DNA of 64,000 nucleotides. Source: Flavobacterium psychrophilum (GTDB lineage: Bacteria; Bacteroidota; Bacteroidia; Flavobacteriales; Flavobacteriaceae). The stretch spans positions 2,356,001-2,420,000 of the forward strand of contig CP012388.1 in NCBI GenBank assembly GCA_001708385.1. The letters are read 5' to 3'. Below the pieces are notes generated by a model. The model had not been told where the DNA came from and ran no database searches. It was given only the letters and a program-made list of their open reading frames with translations. This document shows, piece by piece, positions 53,254 to 54,303 of this stretch (position 1 is its first letter; each line of letters begins with the position of its first letter). The position numbers and the translations under genes were made by a program.

Positions 53254-53261
53254 TACCTTTG
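53254..53261 (+). promoter_or_regulatory. corA leader -7 promoter element
   Basis: TACCTTTG, an exact TAnnTTTG match, 21 bases before the leader-peptide ATG (53283). The -33 element is weak. Confidence 0.55.
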
Positions 53262-53282
53262 CACCAAATTTTAAAACAACTA

Positions 53283-53324
53283 ATGGACGATTATCATCAT
53301 CGGGAATTAATTAATTTACGATAG
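53283..53324 (+). CDS. 13-residue leader peptide (uORF) of corA
   Basis: ATG to TAG encodes MDDYHHRELINLR. It lies directly after the predicted transcription start and 49 bases before the corA ATG. Its stop codon (53322-53324) lies within the first arm of hairpin A (53321-53328). Translation to the stop would cover that arm. I do not know this peptide from any named family, and a real uORF rests on its position and the RNA fold, not on homology. Confidence 0.55.
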   Translation: MDDYHHRELINLR

Positions 53325-53370
53325 GGAACCTGCCCTGGTGCATTCCCTATTGTCTAACATTTGGAATGCA
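53321..53370 (+). promoter_or_regulatory. Two mutually exclusive hairpins before corA
   Basis: Hairpin A pairs ATAGGGAA (53321-53328) with TTCCCTAT (53343-53350), extended inside by TGC/GCA across a CC bulge. Hairpin B pairs TGCATTCC (53339-53346) with GGAATGCA (53363-53370), plus a G-U pair, and ends 3 bases before the corA ATG (53374). They share bases 53343-53346, so only one can form. B would cover the start region and A would leave it open. Confidence 0.55.
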
Positions 53371-53373
53371 TTT

Positions 53374-54303
53374 ATGATTACGTACTACAAAAACAACGCT
53401 ACCGGCATTGCGGAGGCTGCTACTCACGCTGAATCTATTTGGATTAGTGCCGTAAACCCAACAGACATCGAAAAACGCAGGCTTCTTGAAGAATTCAGGA
53501 TACCTGAAGCTTTTTACAACGATATTGAAGATATAGACGAACGCCCCCGTATTGAGTTTGAAAACGGATGGTGCCTTATCATTGTAAGGATTCCGTTTAA
53601 AAGCGACGACCTGAAGTTGCCGTATACTACTGCGCCTTTGGGTGTAATTTTTAATGAAAACGTTTGTGTATCGCTCTGCTTTGTTGAAAATGAACTAATA
53701 GACGATTTTATTACCTATTCTCAACGCAAGAATATTAATGTAGGCGATAACTTTGCTTTGGTATTCAGGCTATTGCTTTCATCAAGTATCTGGTTCCAGA
53801 AATACCTTAAGCAGATAAATCTGGGCATTAAATATGCCGAAAGCAATCTTGAGAAATCGGTGCGTAATGAAGACCTTCAGGCACTTTTTAGAATGGAGAA
53901 ATGCCTGGAATATTTTATTACATCGCTAAAGGGTAATGAACTGCTCTTTTACCGCATTAAAAACCTCAAAACACATAAAGACTTATTTGATCCTGAGATG
54001 GTAGAAGATGTTGAAATCGAGATCAAACAGGCACAGGACACGACCAATATTTACAGCAACATCCTTACTGGAATGATGGATGCTTATGCATCTGTAATTT
54101 CTAACAACCTGAATGTGGTTATGAAAAGGCTTACGTCGATATCATTAATATTAATGATACCTACACTTGTTGCCAGTTTATATGGAATGAACGTGCCCAA
54201 TTCGTTGCAGGATAATCCGTACGGATTCCCAATCGTGGTTTGCATGTCTTTACTCCTGTCTTTTATAGGGGTGGTAATGTTCAGGAAAAAGAATTTGTTC
54301 TAG
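53374..54303 (+). CDS. corA: CorA family divalent-cation transporter
   Basis: A 309-residue CorA-type channel. A large cytoplasmic N-terminal domain with long helices is followed by two C-terminal membrane helices (about 253-275 and 284-303). The selectivity motif is YGMN (GMN 271-273), with the usual periplasmic loop after it. It imports Mg2+ and perhaps Co2+ or Ni2+. The ATG at 53374 is chosen because it gives the family N-terminus; a GTG at 53338 in the same frame lies inside the hairpins. Regulation by the upstream uORF and hairpins is proposed in the findings. Confidence 0.9.
   Translation: MITYYKNNATGIAEAATHAESIWISAVNPTDIEKRRLLEEFRIPEAFYNDIEDIDERPRIEFENGWCLIIVRIPFKSDDLKLPYTTAPLGVIFNENVCVSLCFVENELIDDFITYSQRKNINVGDNFALVFRLLLSSSIWFQKYLKQINLGIKYAESNLEKSVRNEDLQALFRMEKCLEYFITSLKGNELLFYRIKNLKTHKDLFDPEMVEDVEIEIKQAQDTTNIYSNILTGMMDAYASVISNNLNVVMKRLTSISLILMIPTLVASLYGMNVPNSLQDNPYGFPIVVCMSLLLSFIGVVMFRKKNLF

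Follow-up and report, generated by a model that had tools for sequence, protein, structure and literature searches.

Ahead of the corA gene of Flavobacterium psychrophilum lies a leader with a short acidic reading frame and two hairpins, which we read as a candidate three-segment translational switch. According to this reading, to which we give a probability of roughly 0.55, early failure of the ribosome at Met-Asp-Asp under low Mg2+ would turn corA ON. The leader was studied in a 64,000-nucleotide stretch of DNA (the window, to which all positions below refer), and comparison with related leaders supports, at the level of sequence, the leader ORF, both stems, their mutual exclusion and their placement.

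The proposed controlled gene, corA (53374..54303, forward strand, ATG at 53374), encodes a CorA-family divalent cation channel with a GMN motif and lies between a gene for 3-hydroxyanthranilate dioxygenase on one side and an aldehyde dehydrogenase gene on the other. Its product may import Mg2+: it falls in the CorA family by a profile search (PF01544, E 3.7e-48) and by its relatives among solved CorA proteins in the PDB (to E 1e-18), while the match to TIGR00383 (E 1e-28) falls below the curated cut-off of NCBI's corA equivalog model. The nearest named relatives of the gene are those of Flavobacterium sp. AG291 (89% identity) and NRK1 (86%). Upstream of corA, a −7 promoter box can be read in the sequence (TACCTTTG, 53254..53261, forward strand), and it is followed by a leader ORF of 13 codons (MDDYHHRELINLR, 53283..53324, forward strand) that starts at ATG 53283 and ends with the TAG at 53322-53324. 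Both elements of the original prediction are thus present. The box is of the TAnnTTTG type, the −7 consensus given in the study of the B. thetaiotaomicron transcriptome (PMC7366714, excerpted text). With no filter on the peptide applied, 89 of the 92 distinct upstream regions showed a −7-like box with an ATG 12-50 nt downstream; the box was spelled TACTTTTGC in 68 and TACCTTTGC in 10.

These upstream regions were obtained from a base set of 97 loci, made up of 80 named corA loci and 17 strong matches among 60 relatives. In each region we used the −7-like box furthest downstream that had an ATG at a distance of 12-50 nt, and took the first ATG, so that the 89 resulting ORFs were scored blind to their peptide. 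Residue 2 was acidic (Asp/Glu) in 87 of the 89 leaders, and Asp or Glu stood at both residues 2 and 3 in 83. The leaders thus begin with the acidic codons that are a trait of MgtL/MgtQ-type leaders, and the locus has the conserved short ORF ahead of a regulated gene that is expected of an attenuator. The exceptions were a locus with an extra ATG ahead of the usual MDDYYSLVLN (L015) and one in which corA is broken (L097). No ATG lay in range in L069, L095 and L096; the latter two do carry MDDYHPKRNYQLL, and in L069 no such acidic leader ORF was seen.

With 27 further leaders, 25 of these from genera other than Flavobacterium, the set grew to 113 distinct related leaders, which come from this genus and from other families of its class and encode 62 distinct peptides. 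At residue 2, 111 of them have Asp and 2 have Glu; residue 3 is Asp in 108, and residue 4 is Tyr in 88 and Ser in 20. The acidic counts in this set are partly built in, because its leaders, like those of the codon-use set and of an earlier leader set, were picked by their acidic residue 2. One further locus (L147) fitted this rule but was dropped before counting, as its ORF was judged by eye to be part of another coding sequence. At codon 2, GAC, GAT and GAA all occur. Changes in codons 2-3 numbered 3, 4 and 17 at codon positions 1, 2 and 3, a count that includes the 27 regions picked by acidic residue 2; in the unfiltered codon 3 alone they numbered 3, 4 and 9. The conservation of the peptide across related corA leaders, which had been proposed as a check, is therefore found, and it is confined to the N-terminus, M-D-D-[Y/S]-[Y/H/N]. 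Beyond residue 5 the peptide continues for 3 to 14 residues, with a variable C-terminus and length. A strain of Flavobacterium johnsoniae (L018), for instance, carries the leader MDDYYSLVFN.

Two stable hairpins follow in the window. Hairpin A (segment 1:2; 53319..53352, forward strand), the proposed 'corA open' form, was predicted at -14.7 kcal/mol (z -3.73), and none of 200 shuffles was as stable. Its 5′ arm holds the leader stop, as had been claimed. Hairpin B (segment 2:3; 53337..53372, forward strand), the proposed 'corA masked' form, was predicted at -12.8 kcal/mol (z -3.11), with 2 of 200 shuffles as stable. The original prediction let the two hairpins overlap by 4 bases; they do share bases, but these are 7 (53340-53346), and A and B therefore cannot coexist. 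Likewise, B ends 3 bases before the corA ATG, as stated there, if its two G-U pairs are left out, but one base before it if they are counted. Taken as a whole, the leader (53267-53382) shows no exceptional stability (z -1.51; 17 of 200 shuffles reached it), and B, not A, is present in its one best fold.

Related leaders were then compared for the same pair of hairpins. A rule requiring A and B each at -5 kcal/mol or lower, with at least 5 shared bases, held in 81 of 86 singly folded leaders, compared to 114 of 2,580 shuffles; five leaders missed it, and at least 4 bases were common to A and B in 84 of the 86. In addition, partners were swapped among 28 divergent leaders (<70% identical between the ORF stop and corA), in which both stems are kept. 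Stem 1:2 reached -9.72 kcal/mol with its own partner versus -3.70 with swapped ones, and stem 2:3 reached -9.11 versus -4.68 kcal/mol; for either stem, 0 of 20,000 permutations were as good. The own partner was the best of all in 13 of the 28 leaders for stem 1:2 and in 11 for stem 2:3. RNAalifold on the 86 leaders returned 5 pairs, all within A and with double changes at each, and no pair of B. Since B does not align across families, its support comes from the swap and shuffle tests. Weak stems were seen in L043 and L065, which were poor both for sharing and in the swap test, and in L009 and L036, which were poor in the swap test. Covariation of both stems, the other check that had been suggested, thus gave a positive outcome.

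Placement of stem A and access to the corA start were analysed in 48 leaders (<85% identity) drawn from the 113. Measured downstream from the leader ATG, stem A starts at a median of 35.5 nt, and measured from the first base of the leader stop, at 3.5 nt, in both cases with a median deviation of 3.5 nt; L043, L057 and L186 were outliers. Judged by the usual size of a ribosome footprint, stem A would be clear of a ribosome that occupies any of the first five codons and would be covered by one at the stop. In predicted folds of the 48 leaders, the unpaired fraction of the corA start region was 0.58 with A imposed, 0.35 with a ribosome at the stop and 0.37 with neither, and the start was more open with A imposed than with a ribosome at the stop in 45 of 48. 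Among 86 leaders, predicted pairing of the start was 0.62 without a ribosome versus 0.72 with a ribosome at the stop, and it was higher with the ribosome in 54. In these models a ribosome at the stop therefore shifts start pairing modestly, from an equilibrium that already favours B. Because the equilibrium fold already favours B, the ON state would need A to be formed and trapped during transcription. As judged from sequence and predicted folds, the leaders have the mutually exclusive hairpins of an attenuator, one within reach of the ribosome and the other masking the next start.

From this anatomy we infer the following order of events and assignment of the OFF and ON states. Transcription of corA would start a short way past the −7 box. 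On finishing the leader ORF, a ribosome would sit on the stop and cover segment 1, so that segment 2 would pair with segment 3 (hairpin B), hiding the corA start or Shine-Dalgarno sequence and keeping corA OFF. If the ribosome instead paused or dropped off early, in the opening codons, segment 1 would remain free and could pair with segment 2 during transcription (hairpin A), leaving the corA start open and corA ON. Because of the Met-Asp-Asp start, low Mg2+ would promote early abort or pausing, and corA would be induced as cytosolic Mg2+ falls. Mg2+ as the signal, and ribosome destabilisation by acidic residues as the sensor, we infer by analogy with the acidic leader peptides MgtL and MgtQ. 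In the original prediction the ribosome at the leader stop decided between the hairpins. The stems, their exclusivity and the peptide N-terminus stood up to comparison, but early abort or pausing is now favoured over arrest at the stop, since only the N-terminus is conserved. As the first six codons are the most conserved, what is sensed probably happens early in the leader; the variable C-terminal residues make arrest at the leader stop less likely. Also considered was an intrinsic terminator, which is not favoured, as no T run was seen by eye after the hairpins of the window.

Two points count against destabilisation by the acidic residues: the residues after the two Asp (Tyr/His) are bulky, and two Asp are few compared with the classic destabilising runs. 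The genome of the window encodes a protein that scores over the cut-off of TIGR03719 (926 bits), which we take to be the EttA family. Drop-off that depends on Mg2+ and is eased by bL31 or EttA is a trait of the MgtL/MgtQ class. In E. coli, ribosomes drop off at the acidic residues of MgtL when Mg2+ is low, and EttA eases this drop-off (PMC11282234, excerpted text).

When 60 related genomes were scanned with a sequence model of the leader (R1, built from 38 leaders, which include those of some of the scanned genomes), 17 matches were found at E<=3.2e-5, and the next best was at 9.7e-4. The same 17 of 60 genomes carry a strong match to corA, and each R1 match abuts corA by coordinates. None of five weaker matches inspected (L213-L217) resembled the leader. 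In one genome (G019, locus L209) corA is broken and the leader appears to be decaying, with its ATG lost and its later parts still recognisable.

In a sample of the class, 43 of 295 genomes matched corA at E<=1e-40; 29 new loci were examined and 13 matches were left out. The leader was present in 11 of the 29 loci (L132-L141 and L143; two were duplicates of leaders already in the set) and was not seen in the other 18, all with a CorA of <=43% identity (by eye for L145 and L155). Relatives of genome G131 have the leader at 19 of 26 corA loci, with MDDSNPR, MDDYH and other forms, and many of these loci show a Shine-Dalgarno-like AAGGAGG ahead of corA. Six of the 26 lack the leader ORF (L172, L183, L185, L187, L188, L192) and one was left unscored (L189); L172, L183, L185, L187 and L188 lack an MDD ORF despite a close corA (74-80% identity to the query). 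L172, which is near the MDDSNPR leaders, has no ORF and carries a hairpin-forming stretch straight after the −7 box. It is perhaps a natural deletion of the ORF, for which constitutive expression of corA would be predicted.

In the phylum sample, all nine newly examined loci of the same genus have the leader. Outside the class, a short ATG ORF starting with MD or ME was absent from the 170 nt ahead of corA at all 13 loci (L243-L255). As the CorA proteins of these loci are 56-60% identical, the leader follows the class and not the protein as such. One of the loci outside the class (L248) has a short ORF starting MHDD.

A pattern search of 395 genomes of the class, for a −7-like sequence followed by an MDDY[YH]-type start, returned 13 places, spread over 11 genomes. 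Of these, four adjoin corA loci known from the protein search (G279 contig C13, G159, G157 and G309), a fifth (G391) has a corA-like reading frame downstream, and the other eight have no recognised corA start within the next 200 bases. Among these eight, L127, L128 and L131 (genomes G255 and G162) resemble one another, each with an MDDYHVSKID start after a −7-like sequence and no corA start nearby. Neither this pattern search nor R1 in the 60 genomes revealed a second target gene for the leader. A looser pattern gave 8 matches in the organism's own genome, the leader of the window among them, versus 15 for a reversed control, and a phage collection gave no match.

In nine genomes without the usual leader, another ATG lies 7 nt ahead of that of corA and opens an out-of-frame ORF overlapping corA (L150, L151, L153, L154, L157, L158, L160 and L162, mostly of family f18, and L169 of family f32). 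This ORF starts with MDDD in seven genomes, with MNDD in L162 and with MEDDPDI in L169 (three were read by eye). Such an acidic overlapping ORF may represent a second architecture, competing with the corA start or reinitiating at it.

The constraint on leader codons 2-6 reaches past the peptide, to the nucleotide level. Codon 2 is GAC in 105 of the 113 leaders, compared to 33% of Asp codons in corA genes, and codon 3 is mostly GAT. NAY codons make up 98, 96, 82 and 88% at codons 2, 3, 4 and 5 of the 113 leaders, versus 18% in corA genes; at codon 6 NAY falls to 8% and G-ending codons make up 79%, versus 18% in corA. Counted among the 62 distinct peptides, NAY occurs 60, 57, 45 and 49 times at codons 2-5 and then 4 times at codon 6. 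Slow or modified-tRNA decoding may contribute to this constraint. The NAY codons for Asp, Tyr, His and Asn are all read by queuosine-type tRNAs, and the same switch might thus respond to another signal, with the run of NAY codons and the G-ending codon sensing decoding speed, tRNA modification or tRNA charging. The codon bias speaks for this reading, but residue 4 is Ser in 20 of the 113 leaders, the acidic pair is more constant than the other residues, and why corA should follow such a signal is not obvious. We regard this reading as quite improbable. Somewhat more plausible, though still unlikely, is a switch without a specialised sensor, which would follow overall translation capacity or initiation and release corA when ribosomes are scarce or slow. 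Its anatomy alone would suffice for that, and the C-terminus and length of the peptide vary freely; it would, however, need neither a Met-Asp-Asp kept across families nor the link to corA, the sole target found in the 60 genomes.

A direct response of A and B to Mg2+, as in a protein-free metal riboswitch in which the short ORF is incidental, seems to us very improbable. Both hairpins precede an ion channel gene and Mg2+ stabilises RNA helices; on the other hand, an Rfam scan of the window gave no match at the gathering score, including none to a Mg2+ riboswitch, and the N-terminus of the ORF is the most conserved part of the leader. No conserved RNA core was seen, because the stem sequences turn over. 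Short ORFs and hairpins are common, and one ORF and two hairpins might meet by chance in an AT-rich leader, but comparison across relatives refutes this, given the hairpin rule (held in 81 of 86 leaders, as opposed to 114 of 2,580 shuffles), the 0 of 20,000 permutations and the occurrence of leader and corA in the same 17 genomes.

Early ribosome failure at Met-Asp-Asp, the reading we prefer, combines traits of several known systems. Translational attenuation of the ermC type also relies on a leader peptide together with hairpins in which the start of the downstream gene is hidden, and it differs in being induced by a drug-stalled ribosome, with another polarity and signal. The closest precedent is mgtQ of the Salmonella mgtCBRU operon, an 8-aa uORF with Asp2 and Glu5, on which mgtQ depends; these acidic residues lower the output of the uORF and raise the transporter, while its authors state that ribosome destabilisation itself is undemonstrated in mgtQ (PMC8092293, excerpted text). 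As proposed for the corA leader, a short acidic uORF is combined with alternative hairpins that mask or free the ribosome binding site of a Mg2+ transporter gene, at the translational level. Unlike the corA leader, mgtQ has four segments and sits between genes of an operon, in another phylum. Loss of its start codon lowers mgtB, meaning that ON is favoured by a ribosome on segment 1. For the corA leader the opposite is predicted: such a ribosome would favour OFF, and loss of the start codon would raise corA. The original prediction had called the corA leader a separate invention; this holds in so far as no sequence relation is seen in the papers' descriptions, but the logic has a precedent in mgtQ (PMC8092293, excerpted text).

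MgtL of mgtA (E. coli, Salmonella) shares the acidic N-terminal residues in a short leader, and completed translation of MgtL turns the Mg2+ importer off while drop-off at low Mg2+ turns it on, as predicted for corA; MgtL differs by acting through Rho-dependent transcription termination and by its motif EPDP (PMC11282234, excerpted text). CorL of E. coli and Salmonella is likewise a uORF before corA whose translation is inverse to corA expression. It differs in being Rho-dependent, with a leader structured like that of mgtA, a UUG start in E. coli and fewer acidic or proline residues than MgtL (PMC11552253, excerpted text). The corA leader described here would thus join an MgtL/CorL-like polarity with an MgtQ-like level of control and peptide, and judging by the published descriptions we see no relation to these leaders in sequence. 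In the titles and abstract beginnings of the open-access papers searched, no corA leader, Mg2+-responsive or other, is described for this phylum. corA is absent from the main text, as excerpted, of the B. thetaiotaomicron transcriptome study (PMC7366714), and the uORF4u paper (PMC10219788) contains no occurrence of corA, Bacteroid- or Flavobacter-.

A broader proposal, which we make tentatively and hold at somewhat less than even odds, is that the class has an independently evolved Mg2+ sensor, in which survival of the ribosome at Met-Asp-Asp would gauge cytosolic Mg2+ and would be read by the three-segment translational switch on corA; in one family it may have been rebuilt as the acidic ORF that overlaps the corA start. 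With its compact size of about 110 nt, the system would allow a direct look at which features of the first five codons cause ribosomes to fail. If the proposal is true, Mg2+ sensing via ribosome instability on acidic nascent chains arose independently in each of two phyla, which use different peptides, RNA architectures and levels of control, and it would therefore be a general principle and not an enterobacterial oddity.
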